Source: Pseudoduganella albidiflava
Lineage (GTDB): Bacteria > Pseudomonadota > Gammaproteobacteria > Burkholderiales > Burkholderiaceae_D
Reading direction: 5' to 3'
Assembly: GCF_004322755.1 (NCBI RefSeq)
Contig: NZ_CP036401.1
Location: 6,882,001-6,946,000 of the forward strand
Length of the DNA: 64,000 nucleotides
Below are positions 11,668 to 45,039 of the stretch, piece after piece (positions within the stretch are counted from its first letter, which is position 1; every line of letters begins with the position of its first letter). Below the pieces are notes generated by a model that saw nothing but the letters and a program-made list of their open reading frames with translations, made no database searches and was not told where the DNA came from. Position numbers and translations under genes: made by a program.

Positions 11668-12561
11668 TTACTCGCTCGCCGGCTCGCGCAATTTGGCCAG
11701 TACGCCTTCCAGGATCTCCAGGTCGGCGAAGTCGATGATCATCTGACCCTTGCCTTTCGCGCCGATGCGGAACGTGACGGGTGTGGCAAAGCGGTCGGAC
11801 AGTTCTTCTTCCAGGCGCCGGATGTCTCCCGACTTTTCACGCACCCTGGCTTCCGGTGGCGCGTCCTGCTCTTCCTGCGTGCGGGTGACCAGTTTTTCCG
11901 TTTCCCGCACCGACAGGCGTTTTGCGATCACGAGGTTGGCCAGCGTGATCTGCGTGGCGGCATCGACCGCCAGCAGGGCGCGGGCGTGGCCCATGTCGAT
12001 GTCGCCGGCCATCAGCATCGTCTGCACCGGTGCGGCCAGGTTCAGCAGGCGCAGCAGGTTCGATACGGCCGAGCGCGAACGCCCCACGGCGGTGGCCGCC
12101 TGCTCATGCGTGAAGGCGAAGTCGGTGATCAGGCGGTGGATGCCCTGTGCTTCCTCCAGCGGGTTCAAGTCTTCGCGCTGGATGTTTTCGATCAGCGCCA
12201 TGGCCGCGGCGGACGTATCGTCCACTTCGCGCACCAGCACCGGCACGGTGTCGAGGCCGGCGATCAGCGCGGCGCGGAAACGGCGTTCGCCAGCGATGAT
12301 TTCATACCGGATGTCGCCTTGCGCGCCGCCGAGCGGCCGCACGAGGATCGGCTGCATGATGCCCTGCGCCTTGATCGACGCGGCCAGTTCGTTCAGGCTG
12401 CCTTCATCCATCCGCGTACGCGGCTGGTACTTGCCCGGTTGCAATTGGCCGAGCGGCAGTTCGGAGGGATTGCCCGGCTCGACGGGAGCGGGAGAGTCGT
12501 CAGCGCCGCCCAGCAGCGCATCGAGGCCGCGACCCAGGCCTTTGAGTTTTTTGGTTGCCAT
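11668..12561 (-). CDS. parB: Chromosome-partitioning protein ParB
   Basis: A 297-residue parS-binding CTPase clamp. The start MATKKLKGLGRGLDALLGG is the conserved ParB N-terminus that contacts ParA; the open frame runs further upstream but without such signatures. The CTP-binding motif GERRFRAA is at 91-98 and ENIQREDLNP at 125-134, followed by the helix-turn-helix (THEQAATAVGRSRSAVSNLLRL region) and a C-terminal dimer domain ending DFADLEILEGVLAKLREPASE. It lies downstream of parA, with three parS sites 3.7 kb away beyond mnmG. Confidence 0.97.
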   Translation of the reverse strand: MATKKLKGLGRGLDALLGGADDSPAPVEPGNPSELPLGQLQPGKYQPRTRMDEGSLNELAASIKAQGIMQPILVRPLGGAQGDIRYEIIAGERRFRAALIAGLDTVPVLVREVDDTSAAAMALIENIQREDLNPLEEAQGIHRLITDFAFTHEQAATAVGRSRSAVSNLLRLLNLAAPVQTMLMAGDIDMGHARALLAVDAATQITLANLVIAKRLSVRETEKLVTRTQEEQDAPPEARVREKSGDIRRLEEELSDRFATPVTFRIGAKGKGQMIIDFADLEILEGVLAKLREPASE

Positions 12562-12595
12562 TTGTTTTCCAACGCTTACCCCAACAGCAGAGGCC

Positions 12596-12622
12596 GGGGT
12601 CAGACCCGCCGGGTCTGACCCC
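12596..12622. repeat. Perfect 12-bp inverted repeat in the parA-parB spacer
   Basis: GGGGTCAGACCC and GGGTCTGACCCC around a 3-nt loop. The same 27-bp palindrome, with a different loop triplet, occurs at 35174-35200. It is a REP-like dispersed element, not a terminator (no T-run). Confidence 0.85.
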
Positions 12623-12662
12623 AGTTTCTGCACGTGGGTTTTTGTTAAGGGTACCGACCTGC

Positions 12663-13433
12663 TTACATCGTCTTGATGCGCGCCACCATCTCGGCGCCGA
12701 AGGCGATATACGCCTGGGCTCCCTTGGAAGACGGATCGAACGACACCCCTGGCATGCCATACGACGGCGCTTCGGCCAGCCGCACGTTGCGGGGAATGAT
12801 CGTCTTGAAGACCTTGTCGCCGAAATGCTGTTCGAGCTGGGCCGAGACCTGCTGCGACAGCGTCATGCGCGGGTCGAACATCACGCGCAGCAGGCCGATG
12901 ATCTTCAGGTCCTGGTTCAGGTTGGCGTGCACCTTCTTGATGGTGTTGACCAGGTCGGACAAGCCTTCCAGCGCGTAATACTCGCACTGCATCGGAATGA
13001 TCACGCCGTGTGCCGCGCACAAGCCGTTCAGCGTGAGCATCGACAGCGCCGGAGGGCAATCGATCAGGATGAAGTCGTAATCCTGGTCGACCAGCGCCAG
13101 CGCATCCTTCAGGCGCTTTTCCCGGTTATCCAGCTCGACCATCTCCACTTCGGCGCCGGCCAGTTCCCGGTTGGCCGGCAGCACGTCGAAGCGGCCGGAT
13201 TCGGAACGCTGGCGCGCGCTGGCGACATCGGCACTGCCCAGCATGACTTCATAGGTGGATGCGGCCAGGCCGGCCTTGTTGATACCCGCCCCCATCGTCG
13301 CATTGCCTTGCGGGTCCAGGTCGACCAGCAATACGCGCTGGTTCAATTTGGCAAGGCCGGCGGAGAGGTTCACCGTCGTGGTCGTCTTGCCCACTCCGCC
13401 CTTCTGGTTCGCTACGCAGAATATCTTTGCCAT
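12663..13433 (-). CDS. parA: Chromosome-partitioning ATPase ParA
   Basis: A 256-residue ParA/Soj-type protein with the deviant Walker A motif KGGVGKTTTT at 11-20 (signature lysine before the GK), and LLVDLDPQGNAT and DFILIDCPPALSMLTLN as further nucleotide-binding motifs. It lacks an N-terminal helix-turn-helix, so it is the chromosomal short type. It forms DNA-bound ATP dimers that move ParB-parS complexes. It lies upstream of parB in the rsmG-mnmG cluster. A 9-bp tandem repeat starts 40 bp upstream of its start codon. Confidence 0.97.
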   Translation of the reverse strand: MAKIFCVANQKGGVGKTTTTVNLSAGLAKLNQRVLLVDLDPQGNATMGAGINKAGLAASTYEVMLGSADVASARQRSESGRFDVLPANRELAGAEVEMVELDNREKRLKDALALVDQDYDFILIDCPPALSMLTLNGLCAAHGVIIPMQCEYYALEGLSDLVNTIKKVHANLNQDLKIIGLLRVMFDPRMTLSQQVSAQLEQHFGDKVFKTIIPRNVRLAEAPSYGMPGVSFDPSSKGAQAYIAFGAEMVARIKTM

Positions 13434-13473
13434 CGGTTTTTTTCTTGTTCGCTTCAGTTCTGGTTTCGATATG

Positions 13474-13572
13474 GTTTATATCGTTTATATTATTTATACG
13501 ATTTATACCGTTTATACTATTTATATAATTTATACCGTATAAACTGTTTATACCGTTTATACGATTTATACG
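13474..13572. repeat. 9-bp tandem repeat (RTTTATAYN), 11 units
   Basis: Eleven consecutive 9-mers such as GTTTATACC, ATTTATACG and GTTTATATT fill the rsmG-parA spacer. One unit (13537-13545, GTATAAACT) is inverted. The last unit overlaps the rsmG stop codon (13566-13568). It is very AT-rich in a GC-rich genome and lies just upstream of parA. Confidence 0.9.
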
Positions 13573-14237
13573 GTTTGTTGGTTATTTACCGCCCTGCCGC
13601 GTTCGACGAAAACCAGGTGCCGTTCCGCATCCAGTCCCGGCACCCGCAAGGCCTGCAAATCGCCCACTTTCCAGTCGCCCGGCAGCCGCTCGCGCTCGTC
13701 CTGCGGTGCGGTGCCTTTCAGTGCGATGAACTTGCCATGTTCCGCCAGCAGGTGATGCGACCACTCGACGAAGTCGGACAGGTCCGCGAAGGCGCGCGAC
13801 GTGATCACGTCGAACGGTTCCTTGACCGCCAGCTCCTGCACCTTCTTCGTGTACACGGTCACGTTCGCCAGGCCCAATTCCACCTTCACCTGTGTCAGGA
13901 AGGCGGTTTTCTTGTGCACCGTATCGATCATCGACACTTTCATGTCCGGCCGTGCGACGGCCAATACGATGCCGGGCAGCCCGCCCCCTGCTCCCACGTC
14001 GAGCACGTTCATGGCCCCGGCAAAGGCCGGAACGGCGGCCAGCGAGTCGAGCAGGTGCAGCGTCATCATCTGCATCGGGTCCCGCACGGACGTCAGGTTG
14101 TAGACGTGGTTCCATTTGTTCAGCAGGGCCAGGTAGTCGAGCAACTGCTCCTGCTGTGCGGACGACAGGTCCAGGCCCAGCTCGGCAACGCCCTGTGCCA
14201 GCACCTGTCCCAGCGCGGTGCGATCGAACCCGGCCAT
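13566..14237 (-). CDS. rsmG: 16S rRNA (guanine-N7) methyltransferase RsmG
   Basis: A 223-residue SAM-dependent enzyme (GidB) that methylates G527 of 16S rRNA. The SAM-binding loop NVLDVGAGGGLPGIVLAVAR and the family motif NKWNHVYNLTSVRDP are clear. The start overlaps the mnmG stop by one base, so translation is likely coupled. The last codons (NNQQTV) run into the 9-bp repeat, so repeat-length changes could alter the extreme C-terminus. Loss of RsmG gives low-level streptomycin resistance in other bacteria. Confidence 0.96.
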   Translation of the reverse strand: MAGFDRTALGQVLAQGVAELGLDLSSAQQEQLLDYLALLNKWNHVYNLTSVRDPMQMMTLHLLDSLAAVPAFAGAMNVLDVGAGGGLPGIVLAVARPDMKVSMIDTVHKKTAFLTQVKVELGLANVTVYTKKVQELAVKEPFDVITSRAFADLSDFVEWSHHLLAEHGKFIALKGTAPQDERERLPGDWKVGDLQALRVPGLDAERHLVFVERGRAVNNQQTV

Positions 14238-16165
14238 CAGGCAGCCTCGTCTTTCAGTGTGACGAAGCCGCCGAAGCCGGCCTTCTTCAGGTGCACCAGC
14301 AGCAGCGAAATCGCCGCCGGTGTTACGCCGGAAATGCGCGACGCCTGTCCCAGCGTTTCAGGACGATGCTTGTTCAACTTTTGCCGCACTTCCACCGACA
14401 GGGCGGCGATGTCCAGGTAGTTGAACCCTTCGGGCAGCTTCAGATTTTCGTAATGCTCGTGCCGTTCCACTTCCTTCAGCTGGCGTTCGATATAGCCGGA
14501 ATACTTCAGCTGGATTTCCACCTGTTCCTGGACGGCCGCGTCCGTTACGCCCGGACCGCCGAGATTGCGGCCGTCCGCGCCCGTCAGCGTCACCAGTGTG
14601 TCGTAGTCGACGTTCGGGCGACGCAGCAAGTCCGCCAGCGAGTATTCGCGTTCGATGGCCTGGCCAATCACCCGTTCCGACTCCGCCGCCTCGAGGATGC
14701 GAGGATTGACCCACGTTGCTTTCAGGCGTTCGAGTTCCGCGGCAACCGCATCGCGCTTGCGCTCGAAGGCTTCCCACTGCGCATCGCCCACCACGCCCAG
14801 CTTGCGGCCGATTTCCGTCAGGCGCATGTCGGCATTGTCTTCGCGCAGCGACAGGCGGTACTCGGCGCGGCTGGTGAACATGCGATACGGCTCTTGCACG
14901 CCTTGTGTGACCAGGTCGTCCACCAGCACGCCGAGGTAGGCTTCCGAACGGGCCGGCGTCCAGGCTTCCTTGCCCTGGGTTTGCAGCGCGGCGTTCAGGC
15001 CGGCCAGCAAGCCCTGTGCGGCGGCTTCCTCGTAGCCGGTGGTGCCGTTGATCTGTCCGGCAAAGTACAGGCCGGCGATGGCCTTGGTTTCCAGCGATGC
15101 CTTCAAGCCGCGCGGGTCGAAGTAGTCATATTCGATCGCATAGCCGGGGCGCAGGATGTGCGCGTTCTCCAGGCCCTTCATCGAACGCACCAGGGCGATC
15201 TGCACGTCGAATGGCAGGCTGGTGGAAATGCCGTTCGGGTAGAACTCGTGCGTCGTCAAACCTTCCGGTTCCAGGAAGATCTGGTGCGATTCCTTGGCCG
15301 AGAAGCGGTGGATCTTGTCTTCGATCGACGGGCAATAGCGCGGGCCGACGCCTTCGATGACGCCGGTGTACATCGGGCTACGGTCCAGGCCGCCACGGAT
15401 GATGTCGTGGGTTTGCTGGTTCGTGTGCGTGACCCAGCACGGCAACTGTTTCGGATGCATGGCCGTGTTGCCCATGAACGAAAACACCGGCACCGGATCG
15501 AGGTCGCCCGGCTGTTCGGTCATCTGGGAAAAGTCGATGCTGCGGCCATCGATGCGCGGCGGCGTGCCTGTCTTCAGGCGGCCTTGCGGCAGCTTCAGTT
15601 CTTTCAGGCGCGCGGACAGCGACAACGCAGGGGGATCGCCAGCACGGCCGGCCGAGTAATTTTGCAAGCCGACGTGGATCTTCCCGTCGAGGAAAGTCCC
15701 GGCGGTCAAGACCACGGCGCGCGACTTGAACTTCAAGCCGATCTGCGTCACGGCGCCGACGACACGGTCGCCCTCCACCATCAAGTCGTCCACGGCCTGT
15801 TGGAACAGCCACAGGTTAGGCTGGTTTTCCAGGCGCGAGCGGATGGCGGCCTTGTACAGGATGCGGTCAGCCTGGGCCCGCGTGGCACGCACGGCCGGGC
15901 CCTTCGACGAGTTCAGAATGCGGAACTGGATACCGGCTTCGTCCGTGGCGATCGCCATCGCGCCACCCAGCGCATCTACCTCCTTGACGAGGTGGCCTTT
16001 GCCGATACCGCCAATCGACGGATTGCACGACATTTGGCCAAGCGTTTCGATATTGTGGGTCAACAGCAGGGTCTTCTGACCCATGCGGGCCGACGCCAAT
16101 GCAGCTTCGGTGCCGGCATGGCCGCCGCCAACGACGATGACGTCGAATTCAGTAGGAAATAACAT
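14237..16165 (-). CDS. mnmG: tRNA uridine-5-carboxymethylaminomethyl modification enzyme MnmG
   Basis: A 642-residue FAD enzyme (GidA) that with MnmE modifies U34 of certain tRNAs. The dinucleotide-binding motif is [17 protein letters not shown] from residue 13. The signatures [20 protein letters not shown] and [11 protein letters not shown] follow, and the C-terminal MnmE-binding domain is complete. It is first in the mnmG-rsmG-parA-parB group, typical of origin-proximal DNA. Upstream lie three parS sites. Confidence 0.98.
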
Positions 16166-16249: not shown

Positions 16250-16265
16250 TGTTTCACGTGGAACG
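16250..16265. promoter_or_regulatory. parS site 1
   Basis: TGTTTCACGTGGAACG, 15 of 16 bases fitting the palindromic parS consensus TGTTYCACGTGRAACA (last base differs). It is a ParB loading site, upstream of mnmG. Confidence 0.9.
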
Positions 16266-16324: not shown

Positions 16325-16340
16325 TGTTCCACGTGAAACA
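16325..16340. promoter_or_regulatory. parS site 2
   Basis: TGTTCCACGTGAAACA, a full match to the parS consensus, 75 bp from site 1. Confidence 0.95.
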
Positions 16341-16377: not shown

Positions 16378-16393
16378 TGTTCCACGTGGAACA
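16378..16393. promoter_or_regulatory. parS site 3
   Basis: TGTTCCACGTGGAACA, a perfect 16-bp palindrome matching parS. It lies one base beyond the stop codon of the TSUP gene. Confidence 0.95.
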
Positions 16394-26325: not shown

Positions 26326-27375
26326 TTAATTAATGGAACGGTGCCCTGCCATTTCAGCCACCAGGGTCTCTACCAGCTTGGCTGCGCACATGCGGCGGGC
26401 TCGCGCGACGCCCGTGCCGCACCATAAGGACATCAGTTCGGTATCGCCCCGCTTGGCCGCCTCGAAGCGGATCGGCCCGGTCAAGGCATTTTGTACGGGA
26501 TACGGCGGTAACTGGTCTTCCACCGCTTCCATCTGTTCCATGAAACGGTTCACCAGACCGCGTGCATAGCGGCCGGAAAACGCCCGCGTCAGGCGGGTCG
26601 GCGCGTTGCCGGCAATCTGCAGCCGGTGCTTATAGGCGGGATGGATGCCTGCTTCATCGGTAACCAGGAACGCCGTCCCCATTTGCACTGCGGCGGCACC
26701 GAGGTTCAGCCGATCGCGCACGTCCGCCCCGGTCATGATATTGCCCGCTGAAATCACGGGAATCGTGACCTCGGCCACCACCGCCTTCAACAGCGCAAGC
26801 GCATCGAGCGTGGCGTCGCGCTGGTCGCCGATGAACGTGCCGCGGTGGCCGCCGGCTTCGGTGCCCGACGCGATCACCGCGTCGGCGCCCACGTTCTGCC
26901 AGGCCAGCGCTTCATCCACGCGCGTCGCGGTGCCGATCACATAGATGCCCGCGGCATGCAACTGCTGTACTTGTGCTGCGGAAAGTATGCCGAACGTAAA
27001 ACTGGCCACGGCCGGCTTCAATTCCAGCAGCACGGCGAACTGGGCGGCAAAGTCTTCGCACCATTTGAACGGCAGCGCCAGCTCGGACCAGCCCAGCGAC
27101 GACCACACGGGTTTCAGCAATTTCACCGCCCGCGCCACCTCCTCGGCACTGGGATGCGGCGGATCCTGGACGAAAAAGTTCAGCATGAAAGGCTTGTCGG
27201 TCAGCTGGCGGGTGTCCGCTACCTGGCGGCGGATCGCATCCGGCGCCAGCAAGGAACACGCCATCGAACCGAGGCCGCCGGCATTCGACACGGCGGCGAT
27301 CAGCGCGGGTGTCGTGCATCCGCCCGCCATCGGGCCCTGGATGATTGGATGGGGGAACAGCGATTGCAGCGTCAT
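26326..27375 (-). CDS. Nitronate monooxygenase (2-nitropropane dioxygenase family)
   Basis: An FMN-dependent TIM-barrel protein of about 349 residues. It begins MTLQSLFPHPIIQGPMAGGC, and the family signatures are SNAGGLGSMACSLL and the FMN-phosphate loop SGTEAGGHRGTF with VISAGNIMTG. It would oxidise nitronates such as propionate-3-nitronate to keto acids; NMO paralogues include reductases, so activity is inferred. The second of two adjacent ATGs (27375) lies 5 nt from GGAG and is preferred. A DnaA-box-like word lies 30 bp upstream. Confidence 0.88.
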   Translation of the reverse strand: MTLQSLFPHPIIQGPMAGGCTTPALIAAVSNAGGLGSMACSLLAPDAIRRQVADTRQLTDKPFMLNFFVQDPPHPSAEEVARAVKLLKPVWSSLGWSELALPFKWCEDFAAQFAVLLELKPAVASFTFGILSAAQVQQLHAAGIYVIGTATRVDEALAWQNVGADAVIASGTEAGGHRGTFIGDQRDATLDALALLKAVVAEVTIPVISAGNIMTGADVRDRLNLGAAAVQMGTAFLVTDEAGIHPAYKHRLQIAGNAPTRLTRAFSGRYARGLVNRFMEQMEAVEDQLPPYPVQNALTGPIRFEAAKRGDTELMSLWCGTGVARARRMCAAKLVETLVAEMAGHRSIN

Positions 27376-27402
27376 CATGGCTCCATCGTTGGTGGATGAG
27401 AG

Positions 27403-27640
27403 CCTGTGGATAAGCTTATGGATATCCACAGGCACCGTTTGTGCGTAAACCGCGCATCAGCGTGACCGCCTATTTTTGTCCAAAAACCGTTCCTCGGCCA
27501 TACAAGGTTTACGCGTGCGGTTGTGCAGCCCGTAAACCGTTGATTTCACTGTGCCCGGATGACTTATCCACAGAAAGTGCAAACTGTTAACAACCACTAC
27601 TAGCTTGTATACATACTTATTCTTGTAAACCGACGCCGCT
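27403..27640. repeat. DnaA-box/GTAAACC module, copy A
   Basis: Holds TGTGGATAA (27405-27413), ATATCCACA (27422-27430), GTGCGTAAACC (27441-27451), CGTAAACC near 27531, the perfect DnaA box TTATCCACA (27564-27572), CTACTA (27597-27602) and TTCTTGTAAACC (27620-27631). The same elements in the same order recur 507-512 bp later as copy B. Confidence 0.8.
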
Positions 27641-27913
27641 TCGCGCCGCCGGCGGGACCCCGGCGTGCTGAACGAAATAATTCCGTCCAGCGACATCGCC
27701 CCAAAAAAACGTTTTGCAAAAAAAAGCTCGCCAATACGAAGCCAGGACGGCCCCGTACATTGCAGACATGGTTCGACAGGATTCGATCCATGGTCTGGCA
27801 GACCATTCAGTCATGGCGAAGACGAGCCGAGACATGTCACTGCTGACTGTTTTTTCTGAATTGCACGGCTTGCCGCCAGGCTGGAGGCCATAAAAAGGCC
27901 AAATTTGCAGGTG
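27641..27913. other. Non-coding spacer between the two DnaA-box modules
   Basis: About 270 bp without a credible gene. It contains an A-rich stretch (27701-27725) and no DnaA-box match. A 107-codon minus-strand ORF crosses it but resembles nothing. Confidence 0.45.
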
Positions 27914-28152
27914 TCTGTGGATAAGGTGCTGCATATCCACAGGAGCGGATGTGCGTAAACCAAGCGGGAGGGGTCTACGGGATTTTTTGTTCAGAACTCA
28001 TCCGGCTCGGATACAATCCTTGTCCTAGTGGTTACTGGACACGTAAATAACTGATTTTGTGGATGTTAACAGCGTTATCCACAGTTAAGTCGATGTTTAC
28101 TATCTACTACCAGCTTAAATATTTATTCTTATTCTTGTAAACCAACGGCGCG
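27914..28152. repeat. DnaA-box/GTAAACC module, copy B
   Basis: Holds TGTGGATAA (27916-27924), ATATCCACA (27933-27941), GTGCGTAAACC (27951-27961), CGTAAATAA near 28042, TTATCCACA (28075-28083), CTACTA (28104-28109) and TTCTTGTAAACC (28132-28143). The three DnaA-like boxes are each exactly 511 bp from their partners in copy A, while the sequence between them has diverged. Confidence 0.8.
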
Positions 28153-28223: not shown

Positions 28224-28979
28224 ATGCATATCTTTCAAAGCCACGACAAAAATTCGAGCAAAAACAAGCGCTTGGGAATCATTTCCGCCCTGGCGGAAGA
28301 ACAGGAAGGCCTGATCCAGGCGATGCAGCACCCTGAACGGCACGTGCACGGCATGCGCGAATACACGGTGGGCAGCTTGTGGAACGTGGAAGCGGTGGCC
28401 GTGCTGTCGCGCATCGGCAAGGTGGCTGCGGCGATGACGGCTGCCCTGCTTGTGGAAAGGTTCGGAGTTACCCACATCCTCTTTACCGGCGTGGCCGGCA
28501 GCGCCGATGCCAATGTGCGGGTCGGCGATGTGGTCATTGCCGAATCGCTGGTACAGCACGACATGGATGCCGCGCCCCTGTTTCCCCGCTTCGAGGTTCC
28601 GCTGACCGGCCTGGCGCACCTGCCCAGCGACCTGGCCATGAGTTCACGGCTGGCTGGCGCGGCCAGTACCTTCCTGGAAGGCGAGAACGGCGCCACGCTG
28701 CATCGCGGGCTGATCGGTAGTGGCGACCAGTTCATCAACGACGGCATGCGCCTGGCGGCCCTGAAAAGCGCCTTGCCGGGGCTGTTGGCGGTGGAGATGG
28801 AAGGTGCCGCGGTGGCTCAGGTGTGTTTCGAGCTGGGCATTCCGTTCGCCGTGATCCGCACCATCTCGGACAATGCCAACGAAACCGCCGCGACCGATTT
28901 CATGGCATTCGTGAAGACCGTGGCTTCCCGCTACGCGTTCGGCATCATCGAAAATTATTGCCGGAACCATGGGGCATGA
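28224..28979 (+). CDS. mtnN: 5'-methylthioadenosine/S-adenosylhomocysteine nucleosidase
   Basis: A 251-residue MTAN/Pfs-type enzyme that removes adenine from methylthioadenosine and S-adenosylhomocysteine in SAM recycling. The family landmarks are GIISALAEEQ (catalytic Glu region), GVAGSADANVRVGDVVIAE, GDQFI, EMEGAAVAQVC and the catalytic Asp in RTISDNAN. The first ~15 residues (MHIFQSHDKNSSKNK) are extra, but no later Met fits. It stands alone just right of the duplicated DnaA-box modules and is convergent with putA. Confidence 0.9.
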   Translation: MHIFQSHDKNSSKNKRLGIISALAEEQEGLIQAMQHPERHVHGMREYTVGSLWNVEAVAVLSRIGKVAAAMTAALLVERFGVTHILFTGVAGSADANVRVGDVVIAESLVQHDMDAAPLFPRFEVPLTGLAHLPSDLAMSSRLAGAASTFLEGENGATLHRGLIGSGDQFINDGMRLAALKSALPGLLAVEMEGAAVAQVCFELGIPFAVIRTISDNANETAATDFMAFVKTVASRYAFGIIENYCRNHGA

Positions 28980-43778: not shown

Positions 43779-44370
43779 CAAGCAGCAGTTGCGCCCTGCG
43801 CTCTTCCGCGAACCGCACCAGGTCGGGGAAGAAGCGCTCGAAACCTGCCGCGATGGCGTCGCGGTGCCGCACCAGGTCCTGCACGCCGTCGCGCAGCAAT
43901 TCGCCATTGCGGCTCAGGCGGCGCGATACCCGCGCGATCGTCCCTTCCACGCCATCGAACGTGGCGTAACCCCCCAGCCAGTCTTGCCGCACCAGGTAGG
44001 GCAGCATCTCGCGCAGCCGCGGCGGCAGCATCGGCTCGTGCGCCGCCAGCGCGTCATAGAAGCGGGCGATCAGCAGCGCGCGCGGCACGTCGCACCACTG
44101 GTGCCAGTGCCGGCTCAATTCATGGTCGTAGAACACATCGAGCACGATGCCCGCATAGCGGCGCCGGCCTTCGCCGAACAATTCCTTCGACGCCAGCACG
44201 GCCGGATGGCTGTCCGTATAGCTGTCGATATGACGGTGCAGCGTGATTTCGCGCGCGATCTCGGGCGGGTACGCCGCGACATCGTTCGCCTTGACGAAGT
44301 CGCCCAGCATCGCGCCGACCATCGCCGCATCGGTATGCCGGGCCAGGTACACGTGGGCCAGGTAATTCAT
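43774..44370 (-). CDS. acpH: Acyl carrier protein phosphodiesterase family protein
   Basis: 198 residues of the AcpH type, which removes phosphopantetheine from ACP. The start MNYLAHVYLARHTDAAMVGA matches the family N-terminus, followed by GDFVKAND and HRHIDSYTDSHPAVLASK, and IVLDVFYDHELSRHWHQW with likely metal-binding His/Asp residues (HD-like). Its C-terminal codons (AQLLLA) overlap the 14-bp repeat. The upstream region is an unusual array of DnaA-box-like words. Confidence 0.88.
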   Translation of the reverse strand: MNYLAHVYLARHTDAAMVGAMLGDFVKANDVAAYPPEIAREITLHRHIDSYTDSHPAVLASKELFGEGRRRYAGIVLDVFYDHELSRHWHQWCDVPRALLIARFYDALAAHEPMLPPRLREMLPYLVRQDWLGGYATFDGVEGTIARVSRRLSRNGELLRDGVQDLVRHRDAIAAGFERFFPDLVRFAEERRAQLLLA

Positions 44371-44394
44371 GCGCCATTCTAGCCCCTGCCGCCC

Positions 44395-45030
44395 GGCCCC
44401 GCTGTGGACAAGCGTGTGCACAAGCCCAGGTAAAACCGGTGGGCAGCCAGTGTGCAATGTCGTACGCAGGCTGGAATCGCCGGTAAACATGCTATCGATG
44501 CCCGTATGGGGATAAGGTTGTGGGCAAGCCTGAGCAAAAGGCCGGGATAAGCCGTGGATAGCCCTGTATGGCTTGTAAATCGGTGTTTTTGATGTGGCGG
44601 CAGCGCTGGATAAGTTTGTGGAAAAGCCCTGGGAAAACATGTGGGCAGGTGGCTTTCAAACGTTCCCGCAAGCTGCCTTGCCTGCTCATTTGGCACGACG
44701 AGCGTCTGTCGTGTCTCCAGGATGGAGGTGGCGGCGTGGTCTCCGGGCGTCGGGGAATAACCACCCCATTTACGCACAGCCGAAAATTCCTGGGGCCCTT
44801 GCCCGGCATACGGGTGCACGCGGCTGCAGCAATGCCGCGCCCCATGGCCTGGCAGCCAAGGACCGGTGCACACGGCTGTGGGAAACTTTGTGGAAAACCT
44901 TGTGATCAAGCCGGTATAAGGGCCTGCATAACCTTGTATAAGCTGGAGATAACCGGGGTATCAGCAGTGGAAAAGGCGGTGGACAAGCACGTGCGCAGCC
45001 TGTGGATGGCGGTGGATAACCATGGATAAA
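44395..45030 (+). repeat. Degenerate TGTGGATAA-like word array
   Basis: About 20 words resembling TGTGGATAA, all in the same orientation: for example TGTGGACAA (44403), TGTGCACAA (44415), TGGATAAG (44608), TGTGGAAAA (44617 and 44889), GTGGACAAG (44980), TGTGGATGG (45001), GTGGATAAC (45011) and ATGGATAAA (45022). A 210-bp stretch (about 44656-44870) interrupts the array. No exact DnaA box is present and no gene is recognised. Confidence 0.6.
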
Positions 45031-45039
45031 GCCGGCCGG

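Follow-up and report, generated by a model that had tools for sequence, protein, structure and literature searches.

Two complete DnaA-box units of the same direction at the very probable chromosomal origin of Pseudoduganella albidiflava

We analysed a stretch of 64,000 nucleotides (the window), corresponding to positions 6,882,001-6,946,000 of one 7,437,157-bp contig. One of its intergenic gaps carries two diverged copies of a module of DnaA boxes, and this twin-module locus is very probably the chromosomal origin. We further consider it likely that this oriC is a compound origin, composed of two complete DnaA-dependent opening units pointing in the same direction. Textbook origins have one start module.

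The initial annotation had reported three DnaA boxes repeated at a distance of 511 bp in a non-coding gap of 848 bp. The boxes TGTGGATAA, ATATCCACA and TTATCCACA are indeed found at 27405/27422/27564 and again at 27916/27933/28075, every pair being offset by 511 bp. The gap measures 845 bp by the start codons of the flanking genes (27378 on the minus and 28224 on the plus strand), and the repeat is more extensive than the boxes seen at first: about 225 bp can be aligned, taking in TGTGCGTAAACC, an IHF-like site, a trio tract and an AT-rich tail (Table 1). The two diverged units held by the gap are separated by 284 bp and share one order: DnaA box 1 (minus strand), box 2, box 3, a CTA-repeat tract (GTTAACAA or GTTTACTA) and the AT-rich tail. 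According to the passage cited, the DnaA-trio is 3′-GAT-5′ (PMC8235120), the complement of which reads CTA on the strand shown. In each unit of the window, duplex stability and position place an AT-rich unwinding element next to the R1-type box and, as judged by the letters only, a DnaA-trio lies between box and unwinding element. The IHF-like consensus, which we take to be WATCARNNNNTTR, has three matches in the whole window, two of them in the units. The window's least stable DNA is found away from the putative origin, at 13468-13551, between the ParA-like gene and rsmG.

Clustering of DnaA boxes at the locus exceeds chance expectation as estimated from shuffles and simulated windows. There are 16 matches to TTATCCACA with at most one mismatch in the 64-kb window, compared to 4.05 (sd 1.74) in shuffles. 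Six of these 16 crowd into one 750-bp stretch, whereas none of 200 first-order simulated windows had more than three. The exact TTATCCACA occurs 13 times genome-wide, four times at the twin-module locus.

Table 1. Features of the twin-module locus and its neighbourhood (positions in the window)
Feature	Position	Strand	Remark
ORF with ParB protein (TIGR00180)	11668..13059	-	true start further in
ParA-like gene	12663..13433	-	name from reading the sequence; no NCBIfam match at E 1e-40
rsmG (gidB)	13566-14237		
mnmG (gidA)	14237..16165	-	
Cluster of three parS-like sites	16250-16265, 16325-16340, 16378-16393	.	the genome's only ones at <=2 mismatches
FabK-like oxidoreductase gene, left flank	26326..27378	-	adjoins module 1 in 33/35 genus genomes
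Putative origin module 1, position-1 type	27404..27630	+	10 nearest modules from three-module loci all position 1
DnaA box 1, module 1, TTATCCACA on the minus strand	27405..27413	-	sequence match
DnaA box 2, module 1, ATATCCACA	27422..27430	+	sequence match
IHF-like site YAANNNNYTGATW, module 1	27533..27545	-	31 bp 5′ of box 3; putative binding site
DnaA box 3, R1-type, module 1	27564..27572	+	adjoins unwinding element
AT-rich unwinding element 1	27587..27626	.	9th least stable non-overlapping 40-bp stretch of the window
DnaA-trio-like tract CCACTACTA, module 1	27594..27602	+	trio reads CTA on the strand shown
Putative origin module 2, position-3 type	27915..28142	+	10 nearest modules from three-module loci all position 3
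DnaA box 1, module 2	27916..27924	-	sequence match
DnaA box 2, module 2	27933..27941	+	sequence match
IHF-like site, module 2	28044..28056	-	31 bp 5′ of box 3
DnaA box 3, module 2	28075..28083	+	sequence match
DnaA-trio-like tract TTTACTATCTACTACCAG, module 2	28096..28113	+	sequence only
AT-rich unwinding element 2	28096..28135	.	4th least stable non-overlapping 40-bp stretch of the window
mtnN (MTA/SAH nucleosidase), right flank	28224..28979	+	right of last module in 35/35 genus genomes

The left half of Escherichia coli oriC reads unwinding element, R1 box, IHF site and further DnaA sites, and has gidA/gidB and the atp genes nearby. Both the order of the elements and these neighbours are the same here; E. 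coli has one such unit, whereas here it is repeated and carries a clear trio tract. The locus might work as follows. In each unit, the box 1/box 2 pair and the R1-type box 3, about 141 bp from it, would be occupied by DnaA, and IHF, bending the DNA at its site between the boxes, would bring these DnaA molecules close to each other. From box 3 a filament of DnaA would then extend onto the adjoining trio repeats and open the AT-rich tail, at which DnaB helicase would be loaded. The second unit would be retained to provide a further site of opening or loading; alternatively, one of the two units could be inactive or regulatory.

The position of the locus on the chromosome fits the origin that the initial annotation had listed among its candidates. 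The genome's only dif match (one mismatch) is at 3,194,174 and the point opposite to it is 3.4 kb from the module, while dnaA, at 7.333 Mb, is 424 kb from the module and 420 kb from the point opposite dif. The same comparison could be made in 16 complete genomes out of a set of 20 (10 of the window's genus, five of genus g30 and one of g28), G104, G267 and G077 being left out for their several contigs and G060 because no dif match was obtained with the pattern. In all 16 the module is nearer than dnaA to the point opposite dif, from which it is separated by a median of 0.41% of the chromosome (maximum 1.3%), compared to 4.2-9.1% (median 5.98%) for dnaA; the two loci are 292-568 kb apart. That no dnaA was visible nearby, which had been held against an origin, is therefore no objection. 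Among 29 further genomes, the place of the module was known and a dif match was available in 14 (G092, for one, gave no match), and in 11 of these the distance of the module from the point opposite dif does not exceed 2% of the chromosome. Overall this holds for 27 of 30 complete family genomes, that of P. albidiflava included. The exceptions are G085 (2.4% off), G132 (5.1%; the perfect one of two dif matches was taken) and G315 (19.4%). G315, of genus g43, carries a three-unit origin at this 19% offset, perhaps owing to a recent rearrangement.

Strand polarity differs between the two sides of the module. Coarse cumulative GC skew, calculated on 20 stretches, each of 20 kb, is lowest near 6.84 Mb and highest near 3.04 Mb. 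In the sampled stretches, the KOPS motif GGGNAGGG was counted 6 times forward and 44 times reverse left of the module, and 62 and 19 times right of it (36/12 up to the contig end and 26/7 onward as far as dif). For the part between the module and dnaA the count is 25 forward and 9 reverse, which argues against an origin at dnaA. The GC-skew check proposed in the initial annotation gave a mixed picture: left and right differ in polarity, but the turning point of skew and KOPS is broad and extends up to 130 kb right of the module (6.92-7.04 Mb, KOPS 2 forward/5 reverse). A similar displacement is seen in the relative G020, where the turning point is about 80-120 kb right of the module (KOPS 2/14 in the 120 kb to the left, 17/12 in the 280 kb to the right). 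This offset turning point, the positions in G315, G132 and G085, the presence of the strict IHF consensus in less than half of the modules and the near-identity of the two units of G217 (see below) speak against the compound origin. No exact DnaA box was found from 6.911 to 7.19 Mb of the chromosome. An origin at dnaA itself was rejected: the module profile has no match in 20 dnaA regions, taken from this genome and its relatives, and dnaA misses the point opposite dif by about 6% of the chromosome. Several complete assemblies of the Massilia, Janthinobacterium and Duganella group begin their numbering at dnaA.

The parS-like cluster, 11 kb from the module, the ParB gene, rsmG, mnmG and, further left, atpA are all within 21 kb of it. 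These neighbours bear on another proposal of the initial annotation, a DnaA-titration or datA-like locus, which we considered together with DARS-like reactivation sites and with the origin located elsewhere. Dense DnaA boxes with an IHF-like site would suit such a site. Sites of this sort are found apart from oriC and lack an unwinding element, whereas here each unit has a trio plus an unwinding tail, the locus is opposite dif with parS beside it, and neither a second locus in the same genome (module model, E 0.01) nor a match in the 20 dnaA regions was obtained. We regard this explanation as very improbable.

Within the genus, BLAST detected the region in P. albidiflava itself and in 34 of 35 further genomes, and outside it in none of 24; the one genome without a match, G006 (83% complete), is outside the 35 genomes that were profiled. 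Profile search over 14-kb stretches of these 35 (16 kb of the present window) yielded 77 units, the pairs G004/G030 and G014/G027 having identical module cores. All 35 genomes carry at least two units (28 two, seven three), of the same direction within each locus. Additional weak matches that suggested a third module in G164, G009, G274, G289 and G020 proved to be reverse-strand overlaps with a real module; one extra weak match in G009 sits on another contig.

The initial annotation had inferred selection from the constant 511-bp spacing and had proposed to look for this spacing in relatives. It is not kept: across the 35 genomes, units are 277-3571 bp apart from start to start, so that the 511 bp are incidental, and in two of 27 genomes of the wider family the units are even oppositely oriented. 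What does hold of the proposed conservation of box order and spacing is the geometry inside each copy, which, in contrast to the distance between copies, is nearly fixed. All 77 genus modules retain TATCCACA in box 2 and TTATCCACA in box 3; box 1 to box 2 measures 17-18 bp (18 bp in all 72 of the 77 modules with both matched), box 2 to box 3 139-142 bp, and the start of box 3 to the trio 20-22 bp. Pairwise identity of the boxes is 0.87-1.00 in position-1 and position-2/3 copies alike. The trio/AT tract reaches 0.88 in position 1 and 0.79 in position 2/3, compared to 0.72 and 0.63 for the rest. In a set of 222 modules, obtained after removal of near-duplicate loci, the strict IHF-like site was found in 91, each time exactly 31 bp from box 3, and was missing from the other 131; shuffled modules gave a match in the same interval in 13 of 4840 cases.

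These measurements also bear on a bipartite origin of the sort known from Bacillus subtilis and Helicobacter pylori, in which one unit would be opened and the other would be a looped DnaA docking cluster with a relic trio and AT tail. Two close clusters of DnaA boxes are a known form, and the likeness goes further: in the passages cited, the bipartite oriC of both species also has a trio beside an R1-type box and an AT-rich unwinding element (PMC8235120, PMC7561715). The same passages describe clusters that flank dnaA and an unwinding element in one subregion (PMC8235120, PMC7561715), whereas here every unit, be there two or three, has a trio and an AT-rich tail, with dnaA at a distance of hundreds of kb. 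Moreover, trio and tail are conserved in every position, the units are freely spaced, and in two of 27 genomes their relative orientation is free as well. A bipartite origin of this kind is unlikely in our view. The free distance and, in some genera, free orientation point instead to units working separately rather than to one complex of fixed geometry.

In the five long-spacer genomes that were read (G002, G008, G012, G016 and G026), the spacer contains one long ORF. In G016 it encodes a dCache-PAS-GGDEF-EAL protein (L120:5497-8463) and lies between units 1 and 2; both stop codons of the gene fall in box 1 of the next unit. We take the long ORF of the other four relatives for the same gene. 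With only 284 bp between its units, the window has no room for such an ORF.

As the gap separates the starts of two divergent genes, we also considered that it might be a promoter region under DnaA control, present in duplicate and serving mtnN and the FabK-like gene, a duplicated regulatory region having been among the first candidates. In support of it, the flanks are kept in most of the genus (Table 1), the FabK-like gene having no match at the module locus in G019 and G021 among the 35 genomes. In the wider family, however, several of 13 loci checked have units with neither mtnN nor the FabK-like gene in the stretch read (for instance G085, G087, G089, G200 and G217), and such a promoter region would leave the dif, KOPS and parS evidence unexplained. 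We find it hardly credible.

To follow the units beyond the genus, the pattern TATCCACANGN{112,142}TTATCCACA was searched and found in 76 of 245 family genomes; the reversed control gave none among the matches listed. At least 119 stretches were obtained, and those listed belong to Massilia, Duganella, Janthinobacterium, Pseudoduganella, Rugamonas, Telluria, Undibacterium and Burkholderiales MAGs, with three strays: two Bacillota without a profile match and a Nitrospira MAG with a weak one. A sequence-only model built from 39 modules matches 275 of 294 family genomes, in 41 of 44 genera, at E 0.001. By hand count, 52 genomes have one match and 223 two or more, the copy numbers being upper bounds as reverse-strand overlaps are possible. 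When every place was listed, 25 of 27 family genomes (13 of 14 genera) had two or three real units at one locus; the other two, both of genus g31, have a single unit, which adjoins mnmG. The two genomes with oppositely oriented units have them diverging (G186) or converging (G217), each unit with its box, trio and AT-rich tail. Opposite orientation, unlike the same-direction pattern of the genus, is thus seen at L418 and L420 of these genomes, and also at L244 of Massilia solisilvae.

Relationships between the units were examined with a tree of 242 modules, which was relied on because string classes A, B and C leave 49 of the 242 unclassified. By these classes, 20 genomes of the genus have A and B, eight A and C and seven all three, type A never being missing. 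Three full units are present at 46 loci (25 of Massilia, eight of Janthinobacterium, 10 of the Duganella-Pseudoduganella-Rugamonas group, two of Telluria and one of another member of Oxalobacteraceae). For 137 of their 138 units, the nearest unit in another locus occupies the same position, which indicates that old paralogues persist next to one another. In the tree, position 1 comes close to forming a clade (48 in, one extra, support 0.85, counted before two loci of genomes entered twice were removed), and positions 2 and 3 do not separate cleanly. The two units of the window group with positions 1 and 3, and no unit of position 2 was found there. At least two distinct units have thus probably been retained, as far as the tree of modules tells, since before Massilia, Janthinobacterium and the Duganella group split. 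Recent duplication or gene conversion was rejected for this group, only two of the 138 units having a sister of the same locus, rather than a unit of the other 45 loci, as their closest relative. Other genera differ. In G217 (genus g47) the two inverted units are 97% identical, hence not old separate paralogues, and in G087 (g53) one unit has an identity of 0.82 to its sister compared to 0.80 and 0.87 to units of other genera; both cases point to copying between units or to later duplication.

Outside the family the signal fades. When 300 genomes of the order were sampled, 161 gave a match to the model; nine of these are from the window's family, and the remainder match weakly. In other Burkholderiales families, dnaA is directly adjacent at 14 of the 21 best matches, which are weak but significant, as would be expected of an ordinary oriC. 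These families mostly have one match per genome and a box arrangement partly different from that described here. Within the window's own family, one genome of g51 and one of g53 have dnaA at the contig start and the units about 7 and 48 kb before it. Together with the single unit of g31, these layouts suggest multiplication of an originally single unit, followed by separation of dnaA from the origin, although the order of events is our reconstruction. In seven genomes of families f27, f49 and f51 (G471, G506, G565, G594, G519, G536 and G410), pairs of weak matches are about 240-440 bp apart, and tandem units may exist there also. In Cupriavidus metallidurans, a 213-nt region with three perfect boxes is reported in the source cited at a skew transition about 90 kb from dnaA (PMC2864759); it may be a unit of the same kind.

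Chromosomes with two origins have been discussed before. Putative double origins computed in DoriC concern four single genomes with two DnaA-box regions per chromosome: in three of them the regions are 150-882 kb apart, and in the fourth dnaA is duplicated (Gao 2015, PMC4403523); unlike the present units, they do not form a family-wide paralogous set. It was stated at that time that there was no evidence for two functional origins ever being used on one bacterial chromosome (Gao 2015, PMC4403523). A Vibrio cholerae strain with fused chromosomes, NSCV1, has since been reported, in the part of the source cited, as a natural chromosome with two origins, both active (PMC6284228). There, two origins of different type were brought together by fusion, whereas here DnaA-type paralogues lie side by side. 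Our search of the literature, mostly outside subscription journals, found no description of tandem complete oriC units and nothing on the origins of the window's family.

We propose, as a tentative generalization, that most of this family might replicate from clusters of two or three separately working DnaA-type origins, which in the Massilia, Janthinobacterium and Duganella group would be old distinct paralogues. If so, each round of replication would have several possible sites of opening and helicase loading, for example one per fork or per growth condition, and the rule of a single opening site per bacterial origin would have, in this family, a long-lived exception in nature. The source cited describes the loading of two helicases for two-way replication as incompletely understood (PMC10201431), and the two or three complete units of culturable Janthinobacterium and Duganella make such questions testable. 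In the Massilia, Janthinobacterium and Duganella genomes measured, the expected place of oriC shifts 292-568 kb from dnaA.

Finally, 16 kb right of the putative origin, a second group of DnaA-box-like sequences occupies 44370-45035, between AcpH-like and Lrp/AsnC-type genes (names read from the sequence). It contains 16 DnaA-box-like 9-mers at up to two mismatches, 15 of them on one strand and several arranged as head-to-tail pairs 10 or 12 bp apart. For such 9-mers this array is the densest stretch of the window, surpassing even the putative origin, and it may serve to titrate or reactivate DnaA.
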